The notes beneath the pieces were generated by a model that had not been told where the DNA came from, did not search any database, and was given only the letters and a program-made list of their open reading frames with translations. Below are positions 11,702 through 45,251 of a DNA stretch of 49,507 nt, piece after piece; position 1 is the stretch's first letter; each line of letters opens with the position of its first letter. Source of the stretch: Chitinophagaceae bacterium (GTDB taxonomy: Bacteria > Bacteroidota > Bacteroidia > Chitinophagales > Chitinophagaceae); NCBI GenBank assembly GCA_947442625.1, contig CANEWJ010000003.1, forward strand, positions 1-49,507. The letters are read 5' to 3'. Position numbers and translations under genes: made by a program.

Positions 11702-11741
11702 TTTGCTGATGATGGGGAATCGCAAAACAACAATCGTTCAA

Positions 11742-18604: not shown

Positions 18605-18711
18605 ATATACGTTTGACCAGTCTTCATTTGCTACACCGCCCATAACATTCCCGTAATACTAGTGTAATGTTTCCTTTATAGCCTAGCAGTAATTCCTTTA
18701 CATTGCTCAGA

Positions 18712-18719
18712 TAATTTTG
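18712..18719 (+). promoter_or_regulatory. Candidate -7 promoter element of the third SusC gene
   Basis: TAATTTTG at 18712-18719 is an exact TAnnTTTG match, placing the expected transcription start about 18 bp before the susC ATG at 18744. No TTTG -33 element is found at 19-21 bp spacing, so support is partial. Confidence 0.4.
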
Positions 18720-18743
18720 CGAACAAACCAAAGTAAAATTATC

Positions 18744-21950: not shown

Positions 21951-21971
21951 TTAACCTCAAAATCAAGGAAA

Positions 21972-23561: not shown

Positions 23562-23596
23562 ACAATTTCAAGTATTTTTTCTCATAAGCAGTAGTC

Positions 23597-23620
23597 GGGC
23601 CCCTATTTCTATAGGGGCCC
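23597..23620 (+). terminator. Perfect hairpin closing the SusC/SusD unit
   Basis: GGGCCCCTAT (23597-23606) and ATAGGGGCCC (23611-23620) form a perfect GC-rich 10-bp stem with a 4-nt loop, followed by the T-rich ACTTTATTTA. It is a good intrinsic terminator candidate between the SusD-like gene and the phosphoesterase gene. Confidence 0.75.
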
Positions 23621-23671
23621 ACTTTATTTACTTAATTTCTTTTCTTTATATTGAACCATAAATCCAGCCAC

Positions 23672-26398
23672 ATGCGTATCAGATTGTTTTTTATTCTTGG
23701 TGCATTCCTTTGTCAGTTTACTGTACAGGCCCAGCAGAATAAATATCTACAGGTTCCAGGCGTTAATCAATTCGCTACCATCAACCATTCAGGTATTTCG
23801 GTACTCCCCAGTGGACGCTATGTGAAACCTGCAGGAAAAGTTTCCATGATTACCCATGACCCATTTGGCTTGACCATATCTCCCGATGGGAAAAAAGCAG
23901 TTGCCCTGCACAATGGGGTAATAACCATTTTCCATTTGGATCTAGACTCAATTGTTAGGGTACCTGATTATGGGAAAACGATTCCATCGCCTTTCAGCAA
24001 AGGCTCATTACTGGGTGCTTCTTTTCACAAGGACAGCAGGATAGTATACCTGAGTGGGGGAGACAATGGAACCGTTATTGCGTATGATATCATTGCGCTT
24101 AAAGTTATCAATACCTATTTGCTGGATGGGAAAGTGGGTGATATTGATTTCAAGGACAGCTTTACCTCTGATTTGCTTTATAATGAAACTGAAAATGAAT
24201 TGATGGTTCTTGATCAGGCCAATTATCGCCTGGTCCGCATTGACTGCACTACCAAACGAATTAAAGCGAGTATACCTGTAGGAAGATTACCATTCGGATT
24301 GGCATTGAGCCCCGATAAAAGAACTGCTGTAGTCGCCAATGTTGGCATGTATGCTTATCCATTGATCAAAGGAATGACCAAGGAAAACTACAATCAAATG
24401 GTGATCAATCATCACCCCTATGGCCATAATACTCCTGAGTCGAGAAATGGTACAGTCATTGATGGAAAAGTTATTCCTGGATTGGGAGATCCCAATGCTC
24501 CAGAGTCCATGAGTGTTTTCACCATCGATTTAACTACCAATACCGTTACCGCAAAATTGAAAACTGGCCACCTGGTTGGAGAAATGATTGAGGATGCTGA
24601 AGTGATTGGCGGCGCAAGTCCCAACAGTATTGCCATTAACGAACAGTTTGCTTATGTGACCAATGCAACCAATGACAATATTGCAGTAATTGATTACCGC
24701 AATGGGAAAATACTGAGGCATATCCAGATAAAGGTTGATCCCAAATTGGATGCTTTCAGGGGTTTACTTCCCTTTGGTATCACCATTTCAAAAGATGGAT
24801 CGAGGTTATATGTTGCATTGCTTGGGTTCAATGCTGTTGCGGTGATTGATACCAAAACAGACCAGACCCTGGGCCTGATTCCTGCTGGTTGGGGGCCTTC
24901 GCGTGTTAAATTATCCCCTGATGAAAAAGAAATCTACATCATCAGCAGCAGGGGTTTGGGTGCAGGCCCAAATGGCGGTAAAAACTTTGTCAGCCCACCC
25001 CAGGGTACTTACGTTGGAGACATACAGATGGCTACATTCCAGCGTCTTCCAACACCTGGCTTGGATCAGTTGAAAGCGTATTGGAAGGATGTGATTTCCT
25101 ATACCTATGCAGCAGTTGATATAAAAAAGACCACAAACCCTTTGCCCAATTTTCCTGGTGAAAAGGAATCTCCCATCAAGCATATCGTTTATATAACCAA
25201 AGAGAACCGTACATACGATGAGGTATTTGGGCAAATGAAAACGGGCAATGGGGATTCAAGCCTTTCAAGGTTTGGACTTGGTGTTGATGTTCGGGTTAAG
25301 CGCAGATCGTTAAAAGAAAGCCTCACAGATAGCCTTGTGCTGACCAATGCCAACATTACGCCCAATCACCACAAGGTGTCTACACAATTTGCCTATTCAG
25401 ATAATTTCTATTGTGACAGCGATGCATCCATCCATGGTCATCATTGGATGATGGGCGTCATTCCCAATGAGTGGGTTGAAGTGAATTCAAAAACGAACAA
25501 GACTGCCAATTATTTTTCTGCTGCTCCCGGCCGTCGATTTCCTGGTTCTACCGGTAGCATGGATCCAGAGGATTATGCTGAAACTGGAGGTTTATGGGAA
25601 GCATTGGAAAGAAAAAAAGTATCATTCTATAATTTTGGTGAGGCGAATGAAACGGCCCACGTTCGTGAAGAGTGGATGGATACAGCCACCGGAGCAGCCC
25701 ATGGTGTGATGGTACCCATGCAAAATGCTGCATTCAAGAGAACCAGCCGAAATTATGCAGGGTACAATACCAATATTCCTGATCAGTTCCGAATGAACCA
25801 GTTTGAAGATGAATTCACCAAAATGTGGTTGAAGGGAAAAGAGAAAATGCCATCCTTGGTTACCGTGCAAATCCCAAATGACCATACTGCATCACCAAGA
25901 CCACTGGATGGTTATCCCTATACACACAGTTATGTAGCAGACAATGACCTTGCCGTAGGAAGGATTTTGCATTTTCTTTCCAGGACACCTTATTGGAAGA
26001 ACATGCTCGTAGTCATTACAGAAGATGATCCACAGGGAGGTGTTGACCATGTTGATGCACACAGAAGCATATTGATGCTGGCTGGCCCTTATGTAAAGCC
26101 GAATCATGTTTCTCATACCCATGCCAATTTCGGATCCATCCTGAAAATGATCTACAACACGCTTGCAGTGCCGTACGTCAACCAATACGATGTAACATCC
26201 TCACTGCTTTCAGATTTTTTTACTGACAAGCCTAATTTTGCACCCTATACCTTGGTGATGCCAGATAAAAGGGTATTCGACCCATCCAAGGCCATGAAAA
26301 AATACAAGCGTGATTTGGATTGGAAAAAAATCATGCAAGGGCCAGCGATGGATGATGAGGATGAGCAACGTGAAAACCATTATAAGAAAGAAAATTAA
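23672..26398 (+). CDS. Secreted YncE-type beta-propeller / phosphoesterase fusion (PF04185-like), copy 1
   Basis: This is an exported two-domain protein. ATG 23672 gives a signal peptide ('LFFILGAFLCQFTVQAQ'); the TTG at 23651 is less likely. Residues about 35-430 are YVTN/YncE-like propeller blades ('PFGLTISPDGKKAVALHNG', 'LPFGLALSPDKRTAVVANVG', 'GPSRVKLSPDEKEIYIIS'). Residues about 505-880 are an alkaline-phosphatase-superfamily phosphoesterase of the phospholipase-C/acid-phosphatase type, with 'KENRTYDEVFG' (Glu511), a 'DASIHGHHWMMG' segment and metal-site 'TEDDPQGGVDHVDAHRS' near 782. It should cleave phosphate or phosphonate mono- or diesters in the periplasm or outside. It is first in the phosphonate gene run, 12 bp before the TonB receptor, and has a paralogue at 32886. 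The substrate is inferred from context. Confidence 0.9.
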   Translation: MRIRLFFILGAFLCQFTVQAQQNKYLQVPGVNQFATINHSGISVLPSGRYVKPAGKVSMITHDPFGLTISPDGKKAVALHNGVITIFHLDLDSIVRVPDYGKTIPSPFSKGSLLGASFHKDSRIVYLSGGDNGTVIAYDIIALKVINTYLLDGKVGDIDFKDSFTSDLLYNETENELMVLDQANYRLVRIDCTTKRIKASIPVGRLPFGLALSPDKRTAVVANVGMYAYPLIKGMTKENYNQMVINHHPYGHNTPESRNGTVIDGKVIPGLGDPNAPESMSVFTIDLTTNTVTAKLKTGHLVGEMIEDAEVIGGASPNSIAINEQFAYVTNATNDNIAVIDYRNGKILRHIQIKVDPKLDAFRGLLPFGITISKDGSRLYVALLGFNAVAVIDTKTDQTLGLIPAGWGPSRVKLSPDEKEIYIISSRGLGAGPNGGKNFVSPPQGTYVGDIQMATFQRLPTPGLDQLKAYWKDVISYTYAAVDIKKTTNPLPNFPGEKESPIKHIVYITKENRTYDEVFGQMKTGNGDSSLSRFGLGVDVRVKRRSLKESLTDSLVLTNANITPNHHKVSTQFAYSDNFYCDSDASIHGHHWMMGVIPNEWVEVNSKTNKTANYFSAAPGRRFPGSTGSMDPEDYAETGGLWEALERKKVSFYNFGEANETAHVREEWMDTATGAAHGVMVPMQNAAFKRTSRNYAGYNTNIPDQFRMNQFEDEFTKMWLKGKEKMPSLVTVQIPNDHTASPRPLDGYPYTHSYVADNDLAVGRILHFLSRTPYWKNMLVVITEDDPQGGVDHVDAHRSILMLAGPYVKPNHVSHTHANFGSILKMIYNTLAVPYVNQYDVTSSLLSDFFTDKPNFAPYTLVMPDKRVFDPSKAMKKYKRDLDWKKIMQGPAMDDEDEQRENHYKKEN

Positions 26399-26410
26399 TA
26401 AGTAAATTTG

Positions 26411-28480
26411 ATGACCATGTCGGGAGTAAAGGCTATTTGGTTGTTCGGATTATCTTTTTCATTTTTTGCTGCGCATTCCCAAACACCAGCTGACTCGGTC
26501 AAGCGAATGGATGATGTCGTTATTACTGCCACAAGGAAGTCAACAGCAATTGCCGTTCTTCCCTATGCCGTAAATGTACTGGATCAAAATTCCATTCAAA
26601 GCCAATTATCAAGGACTGTTCCAGAATCCCTGACTGGAGTGCCAGGCCTTTTCATTCAGAAAACCAATCATGGAGGTGGATCTCCTTTTTTGCGTGGACT
26701 TACTGGAAACCAATCCTTGATTTTGGTGGATGGTATCAGGCTCAATAATTCCATATTTAGGTATGGGCCTAACCAGTACCTTACCCTGGTTGATCCTTAT
26801 CTTGTTGAGAAAATTGAAGTCATCAAAGGAACTGGTTCTGTGCAACATGGAAGTGATGCCATGACCGGAGTAATCAATATCCAAACAACTTCCCTTCAAT
26901 TGGGGTCTAAGCCAAGCTGGCAGAGCAAGGTCCTGATAAGGTTATCAGAATCTGGCATGGAATTTACGCAGAGGCCTGAACTAAAGTATGAAGGCAAAAA
27001 GTTTGCTTTTGTTCTTGGGGCAACCTCGAAGAAATTCGGCGATCTCAAAGGTGGTGACACCACTGGGTTTCAACGGCCAACAGGATATGGAGAGTTTTCT
27101 TATGACGTGAAAATGAAAATTGATCTTGGTGCTGAATGGCGATTGACGGCAGCATACCAATGGTTGAATCAAACCGATGTTCCGGTTTTTCATAGGTACA
27201 GGTTGGAGAATTTTGCCATCAATACTTCTGATCCATTGAAAAGGGGTTTCGGTTATGTGCAACTTCAAAAAAAATTCAAATCAGTTTTTTTCAAACAGCT
27301 TGATGTATTCCTTGCTGAGCAGATGATCAGCGAATCGAGGTATGCCCAAAAAAATGTTTCACGCGTGCTCCGGTTTGAGAAAGATGACACCAGGACAGTT
27401 TCTGCAGGGGCTGATTTGCTTGTTCAATGCAACAAGGTTTGGGATGTCAATACTGGAATTGAAACCTATAATGATTTGGTAAGCAGCAAGCGTTCTGAAA
27501 AAGACGCCTTTTCTGGTTCCGTAAAGCAACTCAGAGGCTTATATCCAGATCAGTCAACCTACTCCAATTTTTCGATCTACAACCTGCATCATTTGAATGT
27601 GGGTCGTTTAAAGGCAGAGGCTGGCGTGCGGTTAAATTTCTATACTGCGAAGATCACTGATACAACCTTGGGTAACGTAAAGATTTCTCCCAGTGCAGCA
27701 GTTTTTCAGGGAGGGTTGAATTACCAGCTCCTCAAACCTTTATTCTTGTATGCCAACATCAGTGATGGTTTTCGTGCCCCAAACATTGATGATCTTGGCA
27801 CCCTGGGTATTGTAGACTTTAGGTATGAGATTCCCGCGTATGATCTTAAGCCAGAGCGTTCAGTCAATACTGAAATTGGGTTAAAAGTCATCACCAGAAA
27901 AATATCTTTTTCAACTGCCCTGTTCAGAACAAACCTGTATGGACTCATCACCCGTGTAGCTACCGGGGCCAGCATAAATGGCATTACGGTGTACAAAAAA
28001 ATCAATGTGGACAGGGGTTTCATCAAGGGATGGGAAGCACAATTTGACTTTAAGCCATTCAGGGGTTTCAATTTCTATGGCAACGCTACCAGTTTGTTTG
28101 GAGAAAGCATCACAAGGAATCAGCCGTTGAGAAGAATTCCCCCATTCAATGCCCGTTTGGGTACATCTTTTGCAAAAAAGCAATGGATGGGTGGACTGAC
28201 TTTCGATCATGCCTCCCCGCAGCGCAGGCTTGATGCAGGCGATAAAGCAGATAATCGAATTCCTGCAGGCGGAACGCCCGGTTTTAACCTTCTCAACCTT
28301 TATTCTGGATATCAGCATAAAAGCTTAACATTCAGGTTGTATTGGAACAATATCTTCAATGCCGATTTCAGAACCCATGGCTCAGGTGTCAATGGCATGG
28401 GAAGTGCAGTTTCTGGAATGTTGATCCATTCATTAAACCATTCAAATGGAAAAAGAAGAAGCAAAAATTATCGTGGATGA
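26411..28480 (+). CDS. TonB-dependent outer-membrane receptor of the phosphonate locus
   Basis: This is a classical (non-SusC) TonB-dependent receptor, about 690 aa. ATG 26411 or 26417 gives a signal peptide ending 'FFAAHSQ'. The TonB box 'MDDVVITATRK' follows directly, then a plug with 'FLRGLTGNQSLILVDGIRLN' and 'IEVIKGTGSVQHGSDAMTGVI', then the barrel. There is no SusD partner. It likely imports a small or lipid-derived phosphonate compound, judged only by its place between a secreted phosphoesterase and phosphonate-cleaving enzymes. Oddity: instead of ending on an aromatic residue, the protein runs 35 bp into the next gene and ends in a basic tail (about '...GKRRSKNYRG'), so the C-terminal barrel strand may be altered or a recent stop change has occurred. 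Confidence 0.9.
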   Translation: MTMSGVKAIWLFGLSFSFFAAHSQTPADSVKRMDDVVITATRKSTAIAVLPYAVNVLDQNSIQSQLSRTVPESLTGVPGLFIQKTNHGGGSPFLRGLTGNQSLILVDGIRLNNSIFRYGPNQYLTLVDPYLVEKIEVIKGTGSVQHGSDAMTGVINIQTTSLQLGSKPSWQSKVLIRLSESGMEFTQRPELKYEGKKFAFVLGATSKKFGDLKGGDTTGFQRPTGYGEFSYDVKMKIDLGAEWRLTAAYQWLNQTDVPVFHRYRLENFAINTSDPLKRGFGYVQLQKKFKSVFFKQLDVFLAEQMISESRYAQKNVSRVLRFEKDDTRTVSAGADLLVQCNKVWDVNTGIETYNDLVSSKRSEKDAFSGSVKQLRGLYPDQSTYSNFSIYNLHHLNVGRLKAEAGVRLNFYTAKITDTTLGNVKISPSAAVFQGGLNYQLLKPLFLYANISDGFRAPNIDDLGTLGIVDFRYEIPAYDLKPERSVNTEIGLKVITRKISFSTALFRTNLYGLITRVATGASINGITVYKKINVDRGFIKGWEAQFDFKPFRGFNFYGNATSLFGESITRNQPLRRIPPFNARLGTSFAKKQWMGGLTFDHASPQRRLDAGDKADNRIPAGGTPGFNLLNLYSGYQHKSLTFRLYWNNIFNADFRTHGSGVNGMGSAVSGMLIHSLNHSNGKRRSKNYRG

Positions 28481-29021
28481 GATTTTCTCCTTGTATGAGC
28501 GTCACGGTAATGCCGATTATATTGGTGAGCCAGTTTCACAATTAGAGCACATGTGTCAAGCTGCACAGCTCGCAGAGGAAGAGGGTTGCGATGATGAGGT
28601 GGTATTGGCCGCTTTTTTTCATGACATAGGGCACCTCTGTGAATTTATCATGCCAGTTGAACTGATGGAAGGTGTTGGTGTGCTGGATCATGAGTCCATC
28701 GGGCAGGCGTATTTGGTTAACAAAGGCTTTTCTGAAAGAATTGCCAAACTGGTTAGAAGCCATGTAGAGGCTAAGCGATTCCTTACCTTCAAGTTCCCCG
28801 CCTATTTTGAAAAACTGTCTGATGCCAGCAAATTAACACTCCAGCATCAAGGCGGAAGGATGAATGCAGAAGAGGCAGAAGCCTTTGAGACTGATCCCAT
28901 GTTTGATCTTTTCATAAAAATGCGCACTTGGGATGACTTGGCAAAAATTACCAATAAGGCGCTCCCTGATTTGAACAAGTATAAGAAAATGGCCGTTTTA
29001 CACCTTATGCAAAACAATTGA
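28446..29021 (+). CDS. PhnZ-like HD-domain mixed-valent di-iron oxygenase (phosphonate C-P bond cleavage)
   Basis: Proteins of this type (phosphonate-operon HDIG family, including PhnZ) use two irons and O2 to cleave 1-hydroxy-2-aminoethylphosphonate into glycine and phosphate. In this 191-aa protein all key PhnZ positions can be read: Tyr25 and Glu28 in 'DYIGEPVSQLEH', His35, His59-Asp60 and His63 in 'FFHDIGHL', His82, His106 and Lys110 in 'RSHVEAKRF', Arg160 and Asp163 in 'MRTWDDL'. These are offset by one or two from the known enzyme. It is cytoplasmic, with no signal peptide. It overlaps the receptor gene by 35 bp and precedes a PhnX-like gene by 6 bp. No PhnY hydroxylase is nearby, so the hydroxylated compound may be taken up directly. 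The exact substrate within the family (for example methylated aminophosphonates) is open. Confidence 0.88.
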   Translation: MEKEEAKIIVDEIFSLYERHGNADYIGEPVSQLEHMCQAAQLAEEEGCDDEVVLAAFFHDIGHLCEFIMPVELMEGVGVLDHESIGQAYLVNKGFSERIAKLVRSHVEAKRFLTFKFPAYFEKLSDASKLTLQHQGGRMNAEEAEAFETDPMFDLFIKMRTWDDLAKITNKALPDLNKYKKMAVLHLMQNN

Positions 29022-29027
29022 TTGAAT

Positions 29028-29705
29028 ATGAGCACAGCCTACAAATTAGCAGTTTTGGATATCGCGGGTACAACCGTTGTCGATAAAGATTTTGTTGCCA
29101 TCGCATTCGTTGAAGCATTCATGCAATATGGCATAGACTTGCGGATTGAAGAGATAAATCCTTTGATGGGATTTAAAAAAACTGAGGCCATATCAACCGT
29201 ATTGCAAAGAAAAAAAATTGAGGTAACACCTGAGAAAGTTGATTTTATCAACAATATTTTTACCAATCAAATGATTTATTTCTATTCCACTTCTTCACAA
29301 GTGGAGGCTTTGCCGCATGCGGAAGCGTTTTTTCAGTTTTTAAAATCAAAGGGCATTGCAGTAGCCCTTGATTCAGGTTTTCCAAGGGTAATTGTTGATG
29401 CCATTGTTGACCGATTGGGTTGGCTTGAAAGGGGATTGGTTGATTTCGTAATTGCCAGTGATGAAGTAGAAAAAGGAAGGCCATTCCCTTTTATGATCAA
29501 CAGGTTGATGGCCTTGGCGGGGGTAGAGGAAACTGCAGCGGTAATCAAGGTTGGAGATACCATGGTTGATATTCAGGAAGGCAGAATGTCTGCTTGTGGT
29601 CTGGTGGCTGCAGTTACCACCGGTGCATACAGCAGGGCTGAGCTGATGGCCTATTCTCCTGACCATGTTGTTGATTCATTGGCGGAATTGGAGCAATATA
29701 TCTGA
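29028..29705 (+). CDS. PhnX-like HAD hydrolase, copy 1 (phosphonatase-like)
   Basis: This is a cytoplasmic HAD hydrolase resembling phosphonoacetaldehyde hydrolase, which releases phosphate from phosphonoaldehydes. ATG 29028 preferred over TTG 29022. Motif I is 'LDIAGTT' (Asp11; phosphonatases have Asp followed by a small residue instead of the second Asp). The cap carries 'MGFKKTEAI' with Lys51 at the position of the Schiff-base Lys of PhnX. Motif II Ser is in 'ALDSGFPR', the motif III region is 'GRPFPFM' and motif IV is 'KVGDTMVDIQEG'. Length 225 aa, slightly shorter than PhnX. It is 1 bp from the alcohol dehydrogenase gene. It belongs to the phosphonatase-like clade often found with phosphonate oxidoreductases; its substrate may differ from phosphonoacetaldehyde. 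Confidence 0.85.
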   Translation: MSTAYKLAVLDIAGTTVVDKDFVAIAFVEAFMQYGIDLRIEEINPLMGFKKTEAISTVLQRKKIEVTPEKVDFINNIFTNQMIYFYSTSSQVEALPHAEAFFQFLKSKGIAVALDSGFPRVIVDAIVDRLGWLERGLVDFVIASDEVEKGRPFPFMINRLMALAGVEETAAVIKVGDTMVDIQEGRMSACGLVAAVTTGAYSRAELMAYSPDHVVDSLAELEQYI

Positions 29706-29706
29706 G

Positions 29707-30804
29707 ATGAAGGGCCAATCAAGTTTTGCGCAATTTGAAGACAGTGCGAATGGGTTTTCCATCAGGACTACCCGTATTCCTGAATTAAAGACCGGTGAGG
29801 TTTTGGTAAGAAATACCTATACGACCATTTGCCGAAGTGATATTTATACATTTCAAGGAAAACGAAAAGAGAAAAGCCCTACAATTTTGGGCCATGAGAT
29901 TGTTGGCAAAATAGTTGCACTTGGCCCAGACGCCCCTTTCAATGATTTGAGGGGGCAGGTACTGAAGATAGGAGACAGAATTACCTGGGGCATCTATGCC
30001 AGTAATCCAGATTCTGTTTTCGCAAAAAAAGGTATTCCACAAAAGGGGGAAGATCTTTTCAAATATGGACATGAGCAAATCACCGAGCATAGTACCTTGC
30101 ACGGAGGATTGTCCGAATACATTATCCTTAGAAAAAATACTCCCATCATTGGCATTCAGGATGATGCGCTGAGCAACAAAGCAGCATCACTCATCAACTG
30201 TGCTGTTGCCACTGCCGCTGGGGCGATACGTCTGGCTGGCAGTCTTGAAAACCAGACCGTCCTTGTCAATGGTGCCGGCATGCTTGGTATCATTGCATGT
30301 GCAATGGCCCATAAAGCGGGTGCACGAAAAGTTATTGCAGTAGATTTTAACAAAGACCGTGCAAATCTAGCATTGAAATTTGGTGCTGATCTCGCATTGG
30401 GTGCAGATGAACCTGTACTTTCATCTTCACCTGCTGCTGATGGTGTAGAGAAATTAAAGGTAGATGTAGTGCTGGAGTTCAGTGGCATTCCAGAAGCCAT
30501 GAAGTCAACACTTGAATTGCTTGACATTGGCGGAACAGCTGTTTGGATTGGTGCAACTTTTCCCCAGCCAGACATTGCCATCAATGGTGAGAAAATGATC
30601 AGAAGGGTATTGACCATCAGGGGCCTTCATAATTACAACCAATCCGATTTGGTGGCTGCAGTTGATTTCATGGAGTCTTCCTTTAATAATTTTGATTTTG
30701 ATTCTCTTGTTCATGGAGGCTTTTCGCTTGAACAAACAGCTGCGGCCTATCAATATGCTATTGACCATAATCCCTTTAGGGTGGGCATTGATCTTGTTGA
30801 TTAA
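29707..30804 (+). CDS. Zinc-dependent alcohol dehydrogenase, phosphonate-catabolism-associated type
   Basis: This is a medium-chain NAD(P)-dependent dehydrogenase. ATG 29707 is chosen because the longer ORF start overlaps the upstream gene in the wrong context. The catalytic zinc ligands are visible: Cys42 in 'TTICRSDIYTFQG' and His63-Glu64 in 'ILGHEIVGKI'. The Rossmann motif is 'LVNGAGMLGIIACAMAHKAG'. The usual four-Cys structural zinc lobe is absent and replaced by a longer 'WGIYASNP...YGHEQI' segment, a feature I associate with the family proposed to act in phosphonate clusters (TIGR03366 type). It may oxidise a hydroxyalkylphosphonate to a phosphonoaldehyde for a PhnX-like enzyme. It lies between the two HAD genes. 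The reaction is inferred. Confidence 0.85.
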   Translation: MKGQSSFAQFEDSANGFSIRTTRIPELKTGEVLVRNTYTTICRSDIYTFQGKRKEKSPTILGHEIVGKIVALGPDAPFNDLRGQVLKIGDRITWGIYASNPDSVFAKKGIPQKGEDLFKYGHEQITEHSTLHGGLSEYIILRKNTPIIGIQDDALSNKAASLINCAVATAAGAIRLAGSLENQTVLVNGAGMLGIIACAMAHKAGARKVIAVDFNKDRANLALKFGADLALGADEPVLSSSPAADGVEKLKVDVVLEFSGIPEAMKSTLELLDIGGTAVWIGATFPQPDIAINGEKMIRRVLTIRGLHNYNQSDLVAAVDFMESSFNNFDFDSLVHGGFSLEQTAAAYQYAIDHNPFRVGIDLVD

Positions 30805-30814
30805 ATTTATCCAT

Positions 30815-31546
30815 ATGCGCAAAATAAGTTTAGTAGTATTTGACTTGTCTGGTACAACAGTAAGCGATGACAATGCTGTTGCAAAATGTTTGTACGAGGG
30901 TGCCAGGCATTTTGGACTTGATGCAACGATTGAAGATTTTGAAAAGACAATTGGAACCAACAAGATCAAGCTCTATGAGTTCATGATTGCCAGAGACAAT
31001 GGCGTGGATGTATTGATTGAAAACCTGGAGCGCTATCATTTTCCTGAGTACCATGAAAAGGCATTGACTGTATTTGATCATTATTCGAAACTGATGGTTG
31101 ACTACTATCGTAATGAGGTCAAAGCGATGCCTGGCGCAGAGGAAACTTTCGAATGGTGTCATCAGAACGGCATCAAGGTGGCTACCGATACTGGATTTCA
31201 CAGGGATGTCAATACTGCCATCATGGAAGGTTTACAATGGCGTGAGAGGGGGTTGATTGACCTTTCTTTGGATGTTGAAAGCACTGAGGGGGTAGGAAGG
31301 CCTGCGCCTTACCTCATCCATCAAGCCATGTTTTCCTTGGGTATTCAAAGTGTTCATGAAGTGATTAAAATTGGAGATACTCCTGCAGATTTACTTTCTG
31401 GATACAATGCAGGTTGCGAAGGCAATATCGGTGTGTTGTCTGGTGCCAATAACCGCGAAACACTTTCCCTTTATCCCCATACTCATATTATTCAGGATGT
31501 AGCACAGCTTCCCGCAACAATCTTAGCAGATTTTTCAAACGCTTAG
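30815..31546 (+). CDS. PhnX-like HAD hydrolase, copy 2 (phosphonatase-like, divergent)
   Basis: This is a second, clearly different phosphonatase-like enzyme. ATG 30815 is chosen; the longer in-frame start at 30662 lies deep in the dehydrogenase gene and encodes an unrelated hydrophobic leader. Motif I 'VFDLSGTT' (Asp10), cap Lys50 in 'IGTNKIKL' (same G-x-x-K spacing as in copy 1), motif II Thr/Asp in 'VATDTGFHRD', 'GRPAPYLIHQAM' as in PhnX, and motif IV 'KIGDTPADLLSGYNAGC'. Length 243 aa. It has an insert of about 15 residues after the cap Lys ('ENLERYHFPEYHEKA') relative to copy 1, which suggests a different substrate. It is 10 bp after the dehydrogenase gene and 2 bp before the transporter. 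Confidence 0.86.
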   Translation: MRKISLVVFDLSGTTVSDDNAVAKCLYEGARHFGLDATIEDFEKTIGTNKIKLYEFMIARDNGVDVLIENLERYHFPEYHEKALTVFDHYSKLMVDYYRNEVKAMPGAEETFEWCHQNGIKVATDTGFHRDVNTAIMEGLQWRERGLIDLSLDVESTEGVGRPAPYLIHQAMFSLGIQSVHEVIKIGDTPADLLSGYNAGCEGNIGVLSGANNRETLSLYPHTHIIQDVAQLPATILADFSNA

Positions 31547-31548
31547 CC

Positions 31549-32838
31549 ATGGCTGCATCCAACATATACCCAACAACCATTAAAAAAATCGATGTTAGAT
31601 TTTTGATGAATGCCGCCGCCGCAGCCTTCATTACGTATCTGAGCATGTATGCATTCAGAAAACCTTTTACCGCTGCAACCTTTGACGGCTTATCGCTTTG
31701 GGGTATGGATTACAAGATCTTACTGATCATTACCCAGTTGATAGGATATACCATTTCCAAATATGTTGGCATAAAGTTGGTTTCTGAATTGCATGCGGGG
31801 AACAGAACCAGGATGTTGATCATGCTCATGGGTTTTGCATGGGTTTCATTGTTCTTGTTTGCCATAACTCCCTTTCCCTACAACCTTCCTTTCATGTTTC
31901 TCAATGGTTTGCCACTTGGCATGATTTGGGGTGTCGTGTTTGGTTTTCTGGAAGGACGAAAATCAACAGAATTGTTGGGCGCTGTGATGGCATCCAGCTT
32001 TATTGTTTCTTCGGGATTGGTCAAGGGGGTGGGTAAATTATTGTTGGACAAATTTGATGTGCCTGAACTGTGGATGCCTTTTGCGGCTGGTTTGGTTTTT
32101 TTACCTCTTCTTGTTCTTGGCATTTGGATGTTGAACAAGATTCCGGCTCCAGATGAAGAAGATATAAAGCTAAGAACACAAAGGGTTCCGATGAAAAGCC
32201 AAGAGCGCCTGCTATTTCTCAAAAGGTTCGCCCCAGGAATATTGTTTTCCATCCTTATTTATGTTGGACTAACCATTTTCCGAGACATGCGCGATAATTT
32301 TGCAGTAGAATTTTGGAGTGCATTGGGGTATTCCACAATGCCAGCCTTGCTTGTTTTTTCAGAAATTCCTATCGCCGTAGCCGTTTTGATTATTATTTCT
32401 TGCATGATTCTGATCAGGAACAACAGGATCGCCTTTTACTCCAACCACATGATCACATTTTTTTGTGGTTTGCTGTTGGTCGTTTCAACATTCCTCTTCA
32501 TCTCAAAATTGATGGATCCTGTGCTTTGGATGATTGTTGCAGGTTTTTCCATGTACCTGCCTTACATCGCCATACACACCATGTATTTTGAAAGATGGAT
32601 TGCTCATTTTCGGTACAAGAGCAACATTGGTTTCATGATGTCCATGGCTGATGCAGCGGGGTATCTGGGTAGTACCATCATTCTGCTGGTCAAAAATTTT
32701 GCAACACCAAATGTAAGTTGGGTGGATTTTTTTATGGTTAGTGCGATTGTGATTGGACTGGCGATGGCAGTTTTTGCTATTGCGGCCTTTTTCTTTTTCA
32801 AGCGGTTGGAGATAAATGCCCAACCTCAATTGGTTTAA
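31549..32838 (+). CDS. DUF5690-family MFS transporter, candidate phosphonate permease
   Basis: This is a 12-helix inner-membrane protein of 429 aa related to organophosphate:phosphate antiporters. It opens with 'FLMNAAAAAFITYLSMYAFR' and 'KPFTAATFDG', characteristic of the DUF5690 family, and continues through regular hydrophobic helices ('LPLGMIWGVVFGFLEGRKST', 'LYFMYLPYIAIHTMYFERW'-like central part). It is translated 2 bp after a PhnX-like gene, so it is almost surely co-expressed with the phosphonate enzymes. In the absence of any PhnCDE ABC transporter or PhnS-type importer here, it is the natural candidate to move the phosphonate from periplasm to cytoplasm. The transport role is inference; the family has no assigned function that I know of. 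Confidence 0.85.
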   Translation: MAASNIYPTTIKKIDVRFLMNAAAAAFITYLSMYAFRKPFTAATFDGLSLWGMDYKILLIITQLIGYTISKYVGIKLVSELHAGNRTRMLIMLMGFAWVSLFLFAITPFPYNLPFMFLNGLPLGMIWGVVFGFLEGRKSTELLGAVMASSFIVSSGLVKGVGKLLLDKFDVPELWMPFAAGLVFLPLLVLGIWMLNKIPAPDEEDIKLRTQRVPMKSQERLLFLKRFAPGILFSILIYVGLTIFRDMRDNFAVEFWSALGYSTMPALLVFSEIPIAVAVLIIISCMILIRNNRIAFYSNHMITFFCGLLLVVSTFLFISKLMDPVLWMIVAGFSMYLPYIAIHTMYFERWIAHFRYKSNIGFMMSMADAAGYLGSTIILLVKNFATPNVSWVDFFMVSAIVIGLAMAVFAIAAFFFFKRLEINAQPQLV

Positions 32839-32885
32839 TGATGCTATATTTATTTTTTGGAAATTAGTTAAAAAAACAATGTTTT

Positions 32886-35306
32886 ATGATGAATAAGAGA
32901 ATAATTGGATCAATAGCTTTGATGCTTGTGTCTACATTATTGAACGCACAGCAATTACCCAAGCAGGTAGTTTTACCCAATGGTTGGAAGCTTAGCCCTG
33001 CAGGAAAATCTTTTGGTTTGGGTGATTTGCCTCTCAATATTGCTGTGAGTAGCACAGGCCGCTTGATGGCTGTTACCAACAACGGTCAAAGTACACAGAC
33101 AATTCAGCTGATCGATGTCAAAGCTGAAAAGGTTGTTGACTCTATTGTGATTGGAAAATCATGGTATGGTCTGACGTTTTCAAATGATGAGAAATACTTG
33201 TACGCTTCAGGAGGACACGACAACCGTATTGTCAAGTATGCTATTGCGAACAACAAGCTTGCTTTTGCTGATGAGTTTATCATGGACAAACCATGGCCAA
33301 CAAGGGTGGGTCCTGCGGGAATTACGATCGATGAAAAACGCAACAGGCTCTATGTCGTAACAAGAGAGGACAAGCAATTTTATTCGTTTGACCTCAGTTC
33401 TAAAAAAATCATTTCGAAACTGGGGCTTGATGCAGAAGCCTATGATTGTAAATTAGGCAAGGGTGCTAAAGAACTTTATATCACCTGCTGGGGTTGCGAC
33501 AAAGTGCTGGTGTATGATCTTGAAAAAAATCTTTGGAAATCACCAATCATTGTTGGAGACAATCCCAATGAAATGCTCGTTACCAACGATGGGAAGTATC
33601 TCTATGTTTGCAATTCCAATGATAATTCAGTGTCTGTTGTTGACCTCTCTACCCGCCGCGTGATTGAAACCTTGGATGCAGCCTTGTTCCCCAATTCTCC
33701 GAGCGGATCGACAACCAATAGCCTTGCCCTTGATCCTATTGCGAAAAGACTCTATATCGCCAATGCCAACAACAACTGTCTGGCTGTTTTTGATGTAGCT
33801 GTTCCTGGCAAAAGCATTGCAAAGGGGTTTGTGCCAGTTGGTTGGTATCCAACTGCTGTAAAAATCGTAAACAGCAAGCTTTGGGTAGCCAACGGCAAAG
33901 GAATGACTTCATTGGCCAATCCATTTGGGCCATCACCCCTTAGGAAAAAGGAGGAGATCATTCACCATGGATTCAATACCAAAGATGCCTCACAGGTTGA
34001 ATATATTGGGGGATTGTTCAAAGGAACCATGAGCATCATCGATTTGCCTAACCAAGCTTCATTGGATATGTATACGAAGGCAGTATATGCCAATGCTGCA
34101 TACTCCCAGGCCAAAGCTGAGATGGCTGATGTAAAAGCGCCGACATTTCCCATTCCTATGAAAGTGGGTTCTCCTTCACCCATCAAATATGTTTTTTACG
34201 TGATCAAGGAGAATAGAACCTATGACCAGGTGTTGGCTGATGTCAAAGGAGGAAATGGAGACACAAGTTTGCTGCTTTTCGGAAAAAATATCACTCCGAA
34301 CCAACACAAGCTGGCAGAGTCATTTGTTCTCTTGGATAATTTTTATGTAGATGCGGAAGTGAGCGCCGATGGACACAACTGGAGCATGGGTGCTTATGCC
34401 AATGATTATCTTGAGAAGACCTGGCCAAGCAGTTATGGCTCTCGCGGAGGAACCTATGGTGGTGAAGGAGAAAGGGAGATTGCAAACAACAAGGCTGGAT
34501 TTATTTGGAACAATTGTTTTAGGTATGGTGTTTCATTCAGGACTTACGGTGAATTTATTGCTGGTGATAAGCCTACGCTTAAGGTATTGGACAATAACTA
34601 TTGCAGCTATTTCCCAAGCTATACTTTGTCTATTGCTGATACAACAAGGTTCCGGTATTGGAAGCAAGATTTTGATTCCTTGCTCAGGCTAAACAAGGTT
34701 CCACAATTCAATACGGTGCGGTTTGGCAATGATCATACTGAGGGCATCAGGCTGGGTAGACCCACACCGTATGCCCATGTTGCAGACAATGATCTTGCCG
34801 TTGGCATGTTTATTGAAGCCCTTTCAAAGAGCCCAATCTGGAATGAAACTGCGGTATTTATTCTTGAGGATGATGCACAAAATGGGGCAGACCATGTAGA
34901 TGCTCACCGAAGCACTGCCTATGTTGCAGGGGGCTTTGTCAAGAGGGGTTTTGTTGATCATACGCCTTATTCAACTTCTTCGATGCTCAGAACCATGGAA
35001 CTTATTCTTGGGATGGGGCCTATGACGCAGTATGATGCTGCTGCTACTCCCATGTGGCGTTGTTTTGATAGTTTGGCCAGGCCTTTTGATTTTAAGGCGA
35101 TCATCCCATCTGTGGGGTTGAAAGAAGTCAATCTTGTAAAGAATGAATGGCAAAGAAAATCTGAGCAATTCAATTTTGCAAAAGAAGACAGCAATAACGA
35201 TATTGAATTCAATAAAGTACTTTGGCATGCGTTGAAAGGGGATATACCCTTTCCTGGGCCAAGAAGGGCAGCCTTCCTCTCTGTTAAGTCCGAAGAGGAG
35301 GATTAA
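32886..35306 (+). CDS. Secreted YncE-type beta-propeller / phosphoesterase fusion, copy 2
   Basis: This is an exported paralogue of the protein at 23672. It starts with a signal peptide ('IIGSIALMLVSTLLNAQ'). Residues about 30-340 form a propeller ('PLNIAVSSTGRLMAVTNNG', 'NPNEMLVTNDGKYLYVCNSN', 'IAKRLYIANANNNCLAVFD'), shorter than in copy 1. The phosphoesterase domain begins at Glu442 in 'VIKENRTYDQV', continues with 'DAEVSADGHNWSMGAYAND' and ends with 'LEDDAQNGADHVDAHRS' near residue 660. Length 806 aa. A 47-bp gap from the transporter and 15 bp to the FAD oxidase place it within the run. Having two of these enzymes around one receptor suggests they act on different ester types or different localisations. 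Confidence 0.88.
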   Translation: MMNKRIIGSIALMLVSTLLNAQQLPKQVVLPNGWKLSPAGKSFGLGDLPLNIAVSSTGRLMAVTNNGQSTQTIQLIDVKAEKVVDSIVIGKSWYGLTFSNDEKYLYASGGHDNRIVKYAIANNKLAFADEFIMDKPWPTRVGPAGITIDEKRNRLYVVTREDKQFYSFDLSSKKIISKLGLDAEAYDCKLGKGAKELYITCWGCDKVLVYDLEKNLWKSPIIVGDNPNEMLVTNDGKYLYVCNSNDNSVSVVDLSTRRVIETLDAALFPNSPSGSTTNSLALDPIAKRLYIANANNNCLAVFDVAVPGKSIAKGFVPVGWYPTAVKIVNSKLWVANGKGMTSLANPFGPSPLRKKEEIIHHGFNTKDASQVEYIGGLFKGTMSIIDLPNQASLDMYTKAVYANAAYSQAKAEMADVKAPTFPIPMKVGSPSPIKYVFYVIKENRTYDQVLADVKGGNGDTSLLLFGKNITPNQHKLAESFVLLDNFYVDAEVSADGHNWSMGAYANDYLEKTWPSSYGSRGGTYGGEGEREIANNKAGFIWNNCFRYGVSFRTYGEFIAGDKPTLKVLDNNYCSYFPSYTLSIADTTRFRYWKQDFDSLLRLNKVPQFNTVRFGNDHTEGIRLGRPTPYAHVADNDLAVGMFIEALSKSPIWNETAVFILEDDAQNGADHVDAHRSTAYVAGGFVKRGFVDHTPYSTSSMLRTMELILGMGPMTQYDAAATPMWRCFDSLARPFDFKAIIPSVGLKEVNLVKNEWQRKSEQFNFAKEDSNNDIEFNKVLWHALKGDIPFPGPRRAAFLSVKSEEED

Positions 35307-35321
35307 CAATTTTCTAAATTG

Positions 35322-36461
35322 ATGCAAATGAAGTCGAATGCAATTGTTATAGGTGCTGGTATTGTTGGGCTTGCTACTGCCAGGGCCCTTGCTATCAGGG
35401 GCAAGAAAGTAAGGGTATTGGAAAGGAGTTCCTTTGCTGTTGGAGCTTCCATCAGAAATTTTGGTATGATCTGGCCCATTGGCCAAGCCGATGGTAAAAT
35501 GTATGAAAGGGCAATGTTGTCCCAATCCATCTGGAAAGAAATTGCTGCAGCTTCTGGGATATGGCATGATCCAGTGGGCTCTCTTCATCTTGCTTATTCC
35601 GATTTGGAAATGGAAGTATTGGAGTCGTTTCGCGATTCGGTAAAAAATACAAGGAATTATACCTTGATGTCTCCATCTGAAGCCTCCGTGCATTCAACGG
35701 CAATTGTTCACAATGGACTGAAAGGGGGCCTGTTCAGTCCTGATGAAATGATTGTCGATTCACCAACAGCCATCAAGGCTTTACCAGCTTTTCTACACCA
35801 ACAATATGGCGTAGAATTTATTTGGGATACCCATGTTCAACAAGTAGAAACCGGCAAGGTGTACAGTGGAAACAAGGTTTTTGAAGCCGACGAAATCTAT
35901 GTTTGCAATGGGCCAGATTTTGAAAATCTTTTCCCGGAAACATTTGCTGCTATGCCCATAACCAAATGCAAATTGCAAATGATGCGTATGGGGGTCCAAC
36001 CCAATGGATGGAGAATGGGTCCTTCCCTTTGCGGAGGATTATCACTTACCCATTATGCCAGTTTTTCGGCTGCAGGAGAACCATTGCAGCGATTAAAGCA
36101 GCATATTGAGGAAGTATTGCCTGATTATGTCAAGTGGGGGATTCATGTGATGGTTTCTCAGAATGCATCAGGAGAGTTGATCATTGGAGATTCTCACGAA
36201 TATGGTCCAACACATGATCCTTTTGAAAAGTCATTTATCAATGAGTTGATCTTGAAATACCTGTCTGGTTTCGCAAGGTTCCAAGAGGAAAAAATTACAG
36301 TGAACTGGAATGGTGTCTATGCCAAACTAAAAGATGGCAGAACAGAAATTGTAACATCTCCAATACCAGGAGTAACAATCATCAATGGATTGGGCGGCGC
36401 CGGCATGACACTTTCATTTGGACTGGCTGAACAGTTGATGGCTGGGGAGTATATTCCTTAA
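35322..36461 (+). CDS. FAD-dependent aminophosphonate oxidase-like protein (HpnW/TIGR03364 type)
   Basis: This is a cytoplasmic DAO-fold flavoenzyme that would oxidatively deaminate an aminophosphonate to a phosphonoaldehyde plus ammonia or an amine. ATG 35322 (or 35328) follows the previous stop by 15 bp. The N-terminus has the FAD motif 'VIGAGIVGLATARALAIRGK' and the very characteristic 'GASIRNFGMIWPIGQ', which I recognise from the FAD oxidoreductase family that travels with phosphonatase-like genes. The C-terminus has a second nucleotide-contacting stretch, 'INGLGGAGMTLSFGLAEQL'. Length 380 aa. A product aldehyde would feed one of the two PhnX-like hydrolases. Substrate (AEP, N-methyl-AEP or hydroxylated AEP) is not decided by sequence. 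Confidence 0.88.
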   Translation: MQMKSNAIVIGAGIVGLATARALAIRGKKVRVLERSSFAVGASIRNFGMIWPIGQADGKMYERAMLSQSIWKEIAAASGIWHDPVGSLHLAYSDLEMEVLESFRDSVKNTRNYTLMSPSEASVHSTAIVHNGLKGGLFSPDEMIVDSPTAIKALPAFLHQQYGVEFIWDTHVQQVETGKVYSGNKVFEADEIYVCNGPDFENLFPETFAAMPITKCKLQMMRMGVQPNGWRMGPSLCGGLSLTHYASFSAAGEPLQRLKQHIEEVLPDYVKWGIHVMVSQNASGELIIGDSHEYGPTHDPFEKSFINELILKYLSGFARFQEEKITVNWNGVYAKLKDGRTEIVTSPIPGVTIINGLGGAGMTLSFGLAEQLMAGEYIP

Positions 36462-36488
36462 TTTTAAATTCACAATAAATTAAGGAAT
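36453..36488 (+). terminator. 12-bp perfect inverted repeat at the end of the phosphonate run
   Basis: ATTCCTTAATTT (36453-36464) pairs perfectly with AAATTAAGGAAT (36477-36488) across a 12-nt loop, overlapping the stop codon of the FAD oxidase gene. It is AT-rich and lacks a following T run, so it may be a weak terminator or an mRNA-stabilising end. Confidence 0.45.
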
Positions 36489-36539
36489 TACTAGCATTCA
36501 ATCCACATTAGCAAAACAATGCCTTTTTAGATTTATGGG

Positions 36540-37787
36540 GTGAAAAAAATTTTTTTTACCCTTTTTCTGGTGCTATTTGTAGCCATAACATGGCTTCTTG
36601 TAGACCAATATCTGCTTTGCCCACATTACAGCTTTACTGATCCCCGTCCTTTTCACGGTGAAAACATTGTCAATCCTTATGCGGATGCAAATTTTAAAGA
36701 TGTGTCAACTGCAAATTTTCATGCACATACAAAATCGTGGGGCGGGTTGACCAATGGGAAGGGAAATTCTTCCGATGTTTGGCAGCGGTATGATAGCCTT
36801 GGACATACTTTTCATGCAGTCTCACAATACCATAAAATAGACAACTATAACCAAGAAAAACAAAATTATGTTCCAGTCTATGAACATGGGTACAACATAA
36901 AGAAGACACATCAATTGGTCATAGGTGCTAAAAAAGTTATTTGGAAAGATTATATTTTTCCGCAGACCCTTCACAACAAACAATTTATTTTGCATGAGAT
37001 GGCGAAGGATACAAGCAATCTGGTTGTCCTCAATCATCCGGCAGTAAGAAGCGGGTATGATGCAAATGACTTAAAACTACTGCATTACTACGATCATATT
37101 GAGCTGCTGAATCCCTCTGCACAATCATTCGCACATTGGGATACTGCATTGACTGCTGGTAAGAAGATTTTTGTTGTAGGGAATGATGATAACCACAACA
37201 TCTTTAATGACAATGCAATTGGCCGGTTCACCACCCTCATTTTTGGCGCTTCATCCGATAGCAAAAAAATGATAGAAAAGATGAAAAAAGGGCAGAGTGT
37301 TGCCGTTTGGCTTCCGCAAATCCACAATGAAACCCTTGAAAGCAAGCGCTCAAAACTGCTTAACCTGCGCTCTTTAATTTCAGGTATTTCTCTGGTAGAT
37401 TCAATGTTGGCAATCAATCTAAGCAAGTCAGTTGCTGAAATAAGGGTTATTGGTCATCATGGACAACTCAAACTGAAGCAAAGAAATACCTCATCCCTGT
37501 CATTTCCATTCTCTATCAATGATCCTTATTTACGGGTAGAACTATCTACTGAAGATGGTACAATATTGTACCTGAATCCTATTTACAGGGATGCGGAATT
37601 TGGTAACCAAGGGCGAAATATGACAGCAGCAAACTTTATCAGCCGTGACAGGTCAAATCCGCTGATGGAAAGTTTCGCATTGGCCTCTATGATAGGACTA
37701 TTTGTTTCTGTTCGCAATGTTAGAAAGCGCAAGAAGAGGAGTTTTAAGAACATGAATATTGATACAACCGGCATGAGCCTTGGATAA
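36540..37787 (+). CDS. PHP-domain-like membrane-anchored or exported metallohydrolase
   Basis: The only plausible start is GTG 36540, which yields an N-terminal hydrophobic helix (residues 3-24) acting as signal anchor or signal peptide. After it comes 'STANFHAHTKSWGGLTNG' with His61 and His63, then 'YEHG', 'LNHPAV' and 'VGNDDNHN', in the order of metal-binding motifs of PHP-type phosphoesterases. The C-terminal part is beta-rich, ending with a short hydrophobic segment and a basic cluster (RKRKKR). Length 415 aa. It lies 78 bp after the phosphonate run and 9 bp before an ArnT-like glycosyltransferase. I infer a phosphoesterase acting in the cell envelope; the exact reaction is unknown. Confidence 0.7.
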   Translation: MKKIFFTLFLVLFVAITWLLVDQYLLCPHYSFTDPRPFHGENIVNPYADANFKDVSTANFHAHTKSWGGLTNGKGNSSDVWQRYDSLGHTFHAVSQYHKIDNYNQEKQNYVPVYEHGYNIKKTHQLVIGAKKVIWKDYIFPQTLHNKQFILHEMAKDTSNLVVLNHPAVRSGYDANDLKLLHYYDHIELLNPSAQSFAHWDTALTAGKKIFVVGNDDNHNIFNDNAIGRFTTLIFGASSDSKKMIEKMKKGQSVAVWLPQIHNETLESKRSKLLNLRSLISGISLVDSMLAINLSKSVAEIRVIGHHGQLKLKQRNTSSLSFPFSINDPYLRVELSTEDGTILYLNPIYRDAEFGNQGRNMTAANFISRDRSNPLMESFALASMIGLFVSVRNVRKRKKRSFKNMNIDTTGMSLG

Positions 37788-37796
37788 ATTGATCTG

Positions 37797-44860: not shown

Positions 44861-45251
44861 TACATTAAGTTTTCCCAGGCGATTTTGGAAAGGGATGGTC
44901 TTTATTTTGTTGGCGTATACAGTAGTGCAACTAATCTCATACCAATCTTTTTTAAGGTTGCCGATTATCATTCAAGAGAACAAGCAGTTGATGCGTTGGA
45001 TGGCTATTGCATTTGTTTATTTTGTTGGCTGTTTGGTATTGAAAGCAAATGGAGTTGCCTGGCTTCTCGGCATCTGGCACCTGATTCATCTCTCTTTGGT
45101 CGGATACCTTTTTTTAATAGGTGTATACGAGTACACGATAGCCCCAGTCCCTTATGGCATAAGGGCTTCAGTTGCTCCGGTAGTGGAGTTCTTGATATCT
45201 CCGCTGCTTTATTTTGCTGCCGGTCTTGTATATGCGATGAGTAAGGAATAA
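44853..45251 (+). CDS. Small membrane protein coupled to the exosortase
   Basis: ATG 44853 overlaps the exosortase stop by 8 bp, typical of translational coupling; the longer TTG form starting at 44802 is less likely. The 132-aa product has about four hydrophobic helices ('GMVFILLAYTVVQLISY', 'WMAIAFVYFVGCLVL', 'LIHLSLVGYLFLIGVY', 'FLISPLLYFAAGLVYAM') and no soluble domain. I do not recognise a family. Its place suggests an exosortase-associated membrane partner, as seen in other Bacteroidota exosortase systems, but the sequence does not clearly match the partner families I know. It ends 23 bp from the convergent hom gene. Confidence 0.7.
   Translation: MFNTLSFPRRFWKGMVFILLAYTVVQLISYQSFLRLPIIIQENKQLMRWMAIAFVYFVGCLVLKANGVAWLLGIWHLIHLSLVGYLFLIGVYEYTIAPVPYGIRASVAPVVEFLISPLLYFAAGLVYAMSKE

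Follow-up and report, generated by a model that had tools for sequence, protein, structure and literature searches.

The stretch of DNA analysed here (the window, 49,507 nucleotides of contig CANEWJ010000003.1 from a Chitinophagaceae bacterium) carries between positions 18744 and 36461 of the + strand a run of closely spaced genes which, with a probability of about 80%, constitutes a PusCD-type (phosphate-utilisation SusCD) locus by which Bacteroidota would use phosphonates, molecules with a direct carbon-phosphorus bond. The run opens with the genes for a SusC-type TonB-linked outer-membrane transporter (18744–21950; TIGR04056 score 424.9, over the cut-off of 368.25) and a SusD-like surface lipoprotein of the SusD-like_2 family (21972–23561; PF12771, 222.8), a pair that terminates 110 bp upstream of the next gene start, and the gap holds a terminator-like hairpin of 10 bp on the same strand (23597–23620), which may be an attenuator. 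The nine open reading frames (ORFs) that follow were all found, as the first-pass annotation had claimed, on the + strand between 23672 and 36461, with internal gaps of no more than 47 bp or overlaps. The first is PE1, a fusion of a beta-propeller with a PF04185 phosphoesterase (23672–26398; PF04185 44.0 against a gathering score of 23, TIGR02276 repeat 70.7 against 27.85), followed by an accessory TonB-dependent receptor of heme/siderophore-like type (26411–28480; PF00593 142.6, PF07715 79.7) and a PhnZ-like HD oxygenase of the mixed-valence diiron type (28446–29021; TIGR03276 212.9, cut-off 214.6), whose ORF overlaps that of the receptor by 35 bp. Next come HADa, a PhnX-like phosphonatase (29028–29705; TIGR03351 176.7, cut-off 218.9), an HpnZ-like zinc alcohol dehydrogenase (ADH; 29707–30804, with its ATG at 29665 or 29707; TIGR03366 316.1, cut-off 328.1) and HADb, a second PhnX-like hydrolase (30815–31546; TIGR03351 175.3, cut-off 218.9). 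The run is completed by a DUF5690 membrane protein, the candidate inner-membrane phosphonate transporter (31549–32838; PF18943 511.9), by PE2, a second propeller/PF04185 phosphoesterase fusion (32886–35306; PF04185 40.8 against 23, PF10282 43.7 against 21.7), and by an FAD amine oxidase of the TIGR03364/PbfD type (35322–36461; TIGR03364 409.1, cut-off 285.1). Both PE proteins, described beforehand as secreted phosphoesterase fusions, passed the PF04185 gathering score, and their secretion was judged by eye from the N-termini.

Among the HD, HAD, ADH and FAD proteins, the FAD oxidase, which had been called HpnW-type, is the sole family member by strict curated cut-offs; the proteins announced as PhnZ-like, PhnX-like and a zinc dehydrogenase were nearest to those families, with all scores below the curated cut-offs. 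The HD, HAD and FAD proteins fall in or beside the phosphonate families rather than outside them. The best solved structure for the window HD protein was PhnZ (150.5 bits), followed by TmpB (107.1), and residues Y25, E28, H35, H59, D60, H82, H106, K110, S128, Q135, R160 and D163 were invariant in 27 HD sequences. H35, H59, D60, H82, H106 and D163, plus Y25, E28 and K110, are common to PhnZ, and we take the invariant positions to include the PhnZ iron ligands and its Tyr, Glu, Lys and Gln active-site residues. Similarly, the best solved relative of both HADa and HADb was the B. cereus-type PhnX, and D13 and the cap lysine K53 (HADa numbering), both aligned to PhnX, were invariant in 18 HAD rows (17 distinct, HADb included); presumably, D13 serves as the nucleophile and K53 forms the Schiff base, as their counterparts do in PhnX. 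Since these catalytic residues are conserved, the sub-threshold proteins were argued to keep the corresponding chemistry.

In a family sample of 147 genomes drawn from the window's own family, with one assembly per species, an HD match at E<=0.001 was found in 40 genomes and the TIGR03276 cut-off was reached in five, while TIGR03364 was over cut-off in 50, the window's own genome included. The TIGR03351 cut-off was reached by some relatives' HADs (250.2 in locus L247, 235.8 in L228). As regards the FAD oxidase, the accessible text of PMC10590968 reports that PbfD1 of A. baumannii is annotated as TIGR03364 in GenBank, and that PbfD2 of M. fucicola oxidised 2-aminoethylphosphonate (AEP) only four-fold slower than N-methyl-AEP and could replace PhnW.

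The ADH is of a type that we take to be linked to phosphonate clusters. The TIGR03366 cut-off was reached in none of the 147 family-sample genomes, and at E<=1e-60 the model matched in eight, in all of which a PhnX-like HAD lay no more than three genes away from the ADH. The gene was located inside the cluster in the window and in the same-genus relative G139, beside DUF5690 and a HAD in G013 and G109, and with a HAD and another MFS protein in G026, G060, G096 and G114. From these settings, and from five genomes in which the two stand as a unit outside the FAD/HD cluster, ADH and HAD seem to form a separate module, and the simplest reading is an alcohol-to-aldehyde step that would feed a phosphonatase-like HAD, for example from 2-hydroxyethylphosphonate, the substrate being a guess. 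It was also observed that four clusters (L246–L249) combine ADH, a PhnX-like HAD and an OPA-type MFS protein apart from the FAD/HD cluster, with an XRE regulator in L247, L248 and L249; the three MFS proteins scanned (L246, L247, L249) matched best, under cut-off, the OPA subfamily TIGR00881. These clusters possibly represent a separate hydroxyalkylphosphonate system.

An alternative reading, which is unlikely, would join the same genes into a linear route for 1-hydroxy-AEP, in which the FAD oxidase would produce hydroxyphosphonoacetaldehyde by deamination, the HAD would split it into glycolaldehyde and phosphate, and the ADH would reduce the glycolaldehyde. This was the original proposal behind the HpnW and HpnZ names. 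Its FAD step matches the TIGR03364 description quoted in the available passages of PMC10590968, HAD, FAD and ADH genes stand together in the window, in G139 and in Algoriphagus, and the FAD gene was present somewhere in all eight family genomes with ADH. However, five of these eight ADH genes lay away from the FAD gene (on other contigs in G013, G026, G060 and G096 and >5 Mb off in G114), that of G109 was 11.5 kb from it, and ADH was found in the stretch at just one of the family FAD loci (n=49, the window itself left out). Moreover, according to the same accessible text, N-methyl-AEP is oxidised by the characterised PbfC and PbfD enzymes, and PbfD2 accepts AEP as well.

The recurrence of the locus was assessed at these family FAD loci and at 80 named HD loci, which are the best 80 of at least 546 confirmed HD relatives and are therefore skewed towards near relatives. 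The two sets are not independent, since six loci are common to both, and gene absences are not proof, because the stretches covered about 10 kb per side and some contigs were short. Tallies were made by tblastn (>=55 bits) because the ORF caller skipped overlapping genes; they pool HADa with HADb and admit a distant SusD type. In G139 the order SusC-SusD-PE1-HD-HADa-ADH-HADb-DUF5690-FAD, the same as in the window, was preserved without the TonB receptor and PE2, and the core recurred in named Bacteroidota, including Mucilaginibacter, Pedobacter, Algoriphagus, Cyclobacterium, Chitinophaga-labelled records, Ginsengibacter and Flavihumibacter. The conserved co-occurrence in relatives that the first-pass annotation had called for was thus observed, and it argues that the arrangement is more than chance. 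Among the named loci, DUF5690 was found in 66, FAD in 62, SusC in 60, SusD in 58 and HAD in 57, and HD, HAD, DUF5690 and FAD occurred together in 49; an XRE-cupin regulator was present in 41, phospholipase C in 18, a GDPD-like gene in 14 and a PE1 homologue in 15. PE2 (six loci), ADH (five) and the TonB receptor are variable additions to the conserved unit. The family FAD loci gave a similar list (DUF5690 44, SusD 33, PDE 33, HD 32, HAD 32, SusC 31), with all four core genes in 25 of the 49. The XRE-cupin regulator (about 192 aa, with HTH_3 and Cupin_2; L188:9219-9797) was often divergent to HD in the named loci. A record labelled as a Myxococcota metagenome-assembled genome (MAG; L216) carries an HD protein 56% identical to that of the window, to be explained either by transfer or by mis-binning of the contig.

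The conserved unit starts with SusC and SusD (18744–23561), which the first-pass annotation had left outside by placing the boundary at 23672. Likewise, the TonB receptor, which had been proposed as the outer-membrane partner, was an occasional addition (7 of the 80 named loci), and the recurrent partner was the SusC/SusD pair upstream. These two genes were on the same strand in all 31 family loci having both, with a median gap between matches of 36 bp. In hand-chosen genomes (14 cluster-positive and 15 negative, plus the window's own), the best homologue of the window SusD lay inside the cluster in all 14 positive genomes (45–57% identity in 13, 32% in one), and a SusD match at E<=1e-40 was found in four of the 15 negative ones, at >=45% identity in one. 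The window's SusD type is tied to the cluster, even though, of the loci with SusD, 5 of the 33 in the family set and 19 of the 58 in the named set had a distant type (<40% identity). It is very improbable that the phosphonate operon comprises 23672–36461 alone and that SusC/SusD is a chance neighbour belonging to a sialidase-type locus: the hairpin separating SusD from PE1 and the further SusD homologues found elsewhere in some genomes would fit that view, but it is opposed by the linkage in every positive genome tested, by the co-occurrence of SusC, SusD and an esterase in 52 of the 80 named loci, the distant SusD types among them, and by the position of the pair in G139.

DUF5690, announced as an MFS protein and assigned here to PF18943, was present in all 51 FAD, 38 HD and 8 PhnW genomes of the family sample, with 80 of the 147 genomes lacking any of DUF5690, FAD, HD and PhnW. 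Its co-occurrence with FAD gave a Fisher p=1e-25, uncorrected for kinship; the FAD list comprised the 50 genomes over cut-off plus one contig-edge fragment (G048), and the HD list left the weak G062 and G128 out of the 40, extra fragments being dropped too. Within 20 kb of FAD, HD or PhnW, 56 of the 74 DUF5690 genes were found. The AlphaFold2 (AF2) model was confident (pLDDT 90.8, pTM 0.89) and presented an MFS fold, and in a Foldseek search 14 of the top 50 entries were G6PT/SLC37A4, with identities of 18–20% as against <=16% for non-SLC37 rows. Over the first transmembrane helix (TM1), hhalign gave P values of 0.0013 for UhpT, 0.042 for UhpC and 0.048 for GlpT, in contrast to 0.20 for NarK and 0.41 for LacY, and the DUF5690 pattern Y..RK.F was aligned to UhpT, GlpT and UhpC. 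R37, K38 and R245 were invariant in 35 sequences; GlpT has its two substrate arginines in TM1 and TM7. These alignments and the model are suggestive of OPA kinship, not of membership. No paper naming DUF5690 was found in a literature search. Near DUF5690 genes without FAD, HD or PhnW in 20 kb (L223, L225, L227, L230–L232, L236, L237), and in 9 of the 49 family FAD clusters, a PhoB/PhoR-like pair was often observed; these calls are BLAST matches to the pair of L062, whose hidden Markov model (HMM) scores fall under the Pho cut-offs, and the window has no PhoB/PhoR-like genes. The DUF5690 copy of a Bacteroides-labelled MAG was nearly identical to that of Ohtaekwangia koreensis (L166/L174), possibly owing to a mislabelled genome.

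An esterase (PDE, PE, phospholipase C or GDPD type) was present in 57 of the 80 named and 37 of the 49 family loci, in contrast to one of the 17 DUF5690-only loci fetched, out of 18. A relative's phospholipase C scored 822.4 in TIGR03396, over the cut-off of 580.25, and relatives' clusters also hold GDPD-like proteins, under cut-off, and PF01663/PF00884 proteins. The esterases of relatives point to ester substrates, for which lipid head groups would be the preferred guess. A gene of about 360 aa between SusD and HD in relatives was considered as a hidden PhnW and rejected, since the three scanned were of PF01663/PF00884 type.

The main and strongest functional anchor is a module swap at locus L117, where the order is SusC, SusD, a PF01663-type PDE, HD, PhnA, PhnY, PhnW, a different FAD protein and DUF5690, with PhnA (496), PhnY (665.1) and PhnW (485.1) all over cut-off. 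A gene set judged similar by reading was found in L118, whose PhnW was also over cut-off. Because L117 has PhnW, PhnY and PhnA there, the FAD/HAD pair of the window occupies the place of the known phosphonoacetaldehyde route. In a quick tree, the DUF5690 copy of L117 was placed among FAD-cluster copies (sister to L059, SH-aLRT 86), and the other five PhnW-linked copies grouped together, apart from these. An ordinary phosphodiester harvest from lipid head groups or nucleic acids, with the HADs as phosphatases, FAD and HD acting on ethanolamine- or choline-like products and no C-P bond involved, would accommodate the many phosphodiesterase-type proteins near relatives' clusters, the HAD scores below the PhnX-like cut-off and the phosphodiesters proposed for PUSI in the accessible text of PMC8115612, but it is the least probable reading of all in view of the phosphonatase cap lysine invariant in 17 distinct HADs, the HD protein nearest to PhnZ and TmpB and sharing their residues, the FAD protein over the TIGR03364 cut-off, and the phnWYA genes of L117 in the same frame.

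The first-pass annotation had also proposed phosphonate degradation without C-P lyase, served by outer-membrane uptake, and this was supported in part: it stood as to the families, their co-occurrence and the lack of PhnJ, once the boundary and the cut-off memberships were corrected. In the window's own genome, a draft assembly 92% complete, searches for PhnJ, PhnD (at E<=1e-10) and PEP mutase gave nothing, and PhnW was not found over its cut-off. C-P lyase, PhnD-type uptake and phosphonate biosynthesis were rejected for this genome. PhnJ occurred in 2 of the 147 family-sample genomes.

Outside the window's contig, PhyH was matched three times in the own genome, on two contigs; two of these matches seem to be parts of a single gene divided between contig ends. 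Their best NCBIfam scores, 53.5 for ectoine hydroxylase and 47.2 for methylphosphonate hydroxylase, were far below the cut-offs. Since none of these proteins reaches the cut-off of a phosphonate hydroxylase model, the HD enzyme probably uses 1-hydroxyphosphonates taken up in that form. A 1-hydroxy-AEP head group has been reported in a Bdellovibrio sphingophosphonolipid, according to a title cited in PMC4642753. Contigs C157 and C19 (L239, L240) end in what seems to be the same PhyH gene, apparently a locus split by assembly.

We infer every substrate, transport direction and reaction of the locus, as follows. SusC and SusD, here aided by the TonB receptor, would import phosphonate esters, most probably head-group diesters of lipid type, through the outer membrane, and the secreted esterases PE1 and PE2 (in relatives PF01663/PF00884, phospholipase C and GDPD-like proteins) would cut the ester and free the phosphonate, which the MFS-fold DUF5690 protein would move to the cytoplasm. 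Inside the cell, AEP or N-methyl-AEP would be converted by the PbfD-type FAD oxidase to phosphonoacetaldehyde, and a PhnX-like HAD would split the latter into acetaldehyde and phosphate via its Schiff-base lysine. In parallel, the PhnZ-like HD oxygenase would cleave pre-formed (R)-1-hydroxyphosphonates, and the ADH would supply hydroxyalkylphosphonates, as aldehydes, to the second HAD. A more specific and tentative version of this scheme can be proposed, in which SusCD would capture phosphonolipids or other phosphonate esters, phospholipase-C- and GDPD-like enzymes would free their head groups, DUF5690 would be an unrecognised aminophosphonate:phosphate antiporter that parallels AepP from a sequence family of its own, a PhnZ-type oxygenase without PhnY* would use ready-made hydroxylated head groups such as 1-hydroxy-AEP, and FAD plus HAD, PhnWYA and ADH plus HAD would be swapped within one uptake frame across several Bacteroidota families.

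Several observations weigh against the phosphonate-utilisation reading or parts of it. Regarding the enzymes, the HD protein fell 1.7 bits short of its curated cut-off, the HADs 42 and 44 bits and the ADH 12 bits, and no PhnY*-type hydroxylase was found among the locus ORFs, so that HD would lack a substrate unless pre-formed 1-hydroxyphosphonates are taken up. Over the phylum, the HD family has a patchy distribution, with matches at E<=1e-20 in 17 of 395 genomes sampled (13 of 171 genera, five families). The FAD gene also occurred in 8 of the 12 PhnD-positive and in both PhnJ family-sample genomes, and the locus is therefore not a simple replacement of PhnD or PhnJ systems; the absences called in the window's own genome rest on its draft assembly. 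Regarding transport, 18 of the 74 DUF5690 genes had no FAD, HD or PhnW within 20 kb, and in the 17 such loci fetched a PhoR-like kinase was found in nine, a PhoB-like regulator in eight, a HAD in two and ADH in one. PF18943 was also matched in Caulobacter, so it is not confined to Bacteroidota. By sequence, DUF5690 gave no PDB profile match to OPA proteins at E<=10 and no NCBIfam match, its comparison with the OPA-type MFS protein of L249 (hhalign P 0.14) was about as poor as that with the control NarK, and the first Foldseek rank was NorA, with TM-scores of 0.70 for sialin, 0.69 for SPNS2 and 0.68 for the best G6PT. G014, a genome without the cluster, carries a SusD at 49% identity, and the window's TonB receptor looks, from its sequence, like heme/siderophore receptors (best NCBIfam TonB-hemin, 177.7, under the cut-off of 316.85). 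Homologues of the relatives' XRE regulator, phospholipase C, GDPD-like and PF01663-type genes were not matched in the window; the lipid argument consequently rests on the relatives. The AF2 model of PE1 was too poor (pLDDT 66.5) for an active-site check. Finally, the hairpin at 23597–23620, the richest in G-C pairs among 26 terminator-like sites in 18500–37000 (17.8 in shuffles, standard deviation 3.9), may end the SusCD transcript, and the Bacteroidota promoter pattern, in the form we take it to have, had one match elsewhere and none near the operon; co-transcription is unproven for both reasons.

The surroundings of the locus hold genes of other kinds. At 2291–13865, a second SusC/SusD pair, a BNR sialidase (PF13088, PF14873), a NanA-like aldolase scoring 155.5 in NF003164, under cut-off, and, both judged by eye, a GntR-type regulator and a hexosaminidase-like ORF resemble an upstream sialoglycan locus. 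After the FAD gene, 36540–39308 encodes a PHP/CehA-like protein (NF038032 43.4, under cut-off) and a PMT_2 glycosyltransferase; in L141, a relative of the same genus, these two genes precede SusC, and a homologue of the glycosyltransferase was found in 6 of the 80 named HD loci. Farther on, following a sulfatase assigned by eye, two small membrane ORFs lie at 44180–45251, the first exosortase-like by eye and without a Pfam match.

Among the matches listed, PMC8115612 is the closest prior description: according to its accessible text, Flavobacterium PusCD loci adjoin phosphonate-degrading enzymes, and such a SusCD-like pair co-localised with organophosphorus enzymes is also present in the window. 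Those Flavobacterium loci were recognised by their induction when phosphate was depleted; their phosphonate enzymes are not named in the available passages, whereas a defined HD/HAD/FAD/DUF5690 set is present here. This set was found in Chitinophagaceae, Sphingobacteriaceae and Cyclobacteriaceae, often with the XRE-cupin regulator, although not in the window. What is new relative to PusCD is a defined architecture in several families, a transporter candidate and swappable catabolic modules. The PbfD/phnX clusters seen in the accessible part of PMC10590968 resemble the window in combining a TIGR03364-type FAD oxidase with a PhnX-type enzyme and no PhnW, but the window adds outer-membrane capture, esterases, the HD oxygenase and DUF5690, and its HADs are PhnX-like, not PhnX by cut-off. 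The iron ligands and substrate residues of PhnZ from the PhnY*/PhnZ oxidative pathway, as covered in available passages of PMC10574752, occur in the window HD too, whereas the hydroxylase partner is not in the locus. The phnWYA hydrolytic pathway occupies the same frame in L117, and the window has FAD plus HAD instead.

As for transport, the passages available from PMC8316502 describe AepP of Pseudomonas putida BIRD-1 as an AEP permease, a single GlpT-related MFS protein from the OPA family, and report that it also occurs in a Bacteroidetes genome next to genes for AEP catabolism. AepP is there 27.75% identical to GlpT, whereas DUF5690, compared with the OPA proteins of PDB and NCBIfam, has no significant OPA sequence match. 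The OPA transporters (GlpT, UhpT, SLC37/G6PT) share the MFS fold with DUF5690, but the latter forms its own Pfam family and other MFS structures are equal by TM-score.

Phosphonate-cleavage genes have been counted mainly in Pseudomonadota, as far as the available passages of PMC10574752 go, and in its main text neither Bacteroid nor TonB stands at the start of any word. In the accessible text of PMC4642753, Pedobacter glucosidilyticus had no complete AEP pathway and six Pedobacter genomes no other known organophosphonate pathway. If the phosphonate-utilisation reading is true, part of the Bacteroidota, in several families, uses esterified phosphonates via an outer-membrane route, and DUF5690 would acquire a role in phosphonate transport that can be tested. 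Surveys counting phnJ, phnW, phnX or phnA alone would, in that case, overlook these organisms.

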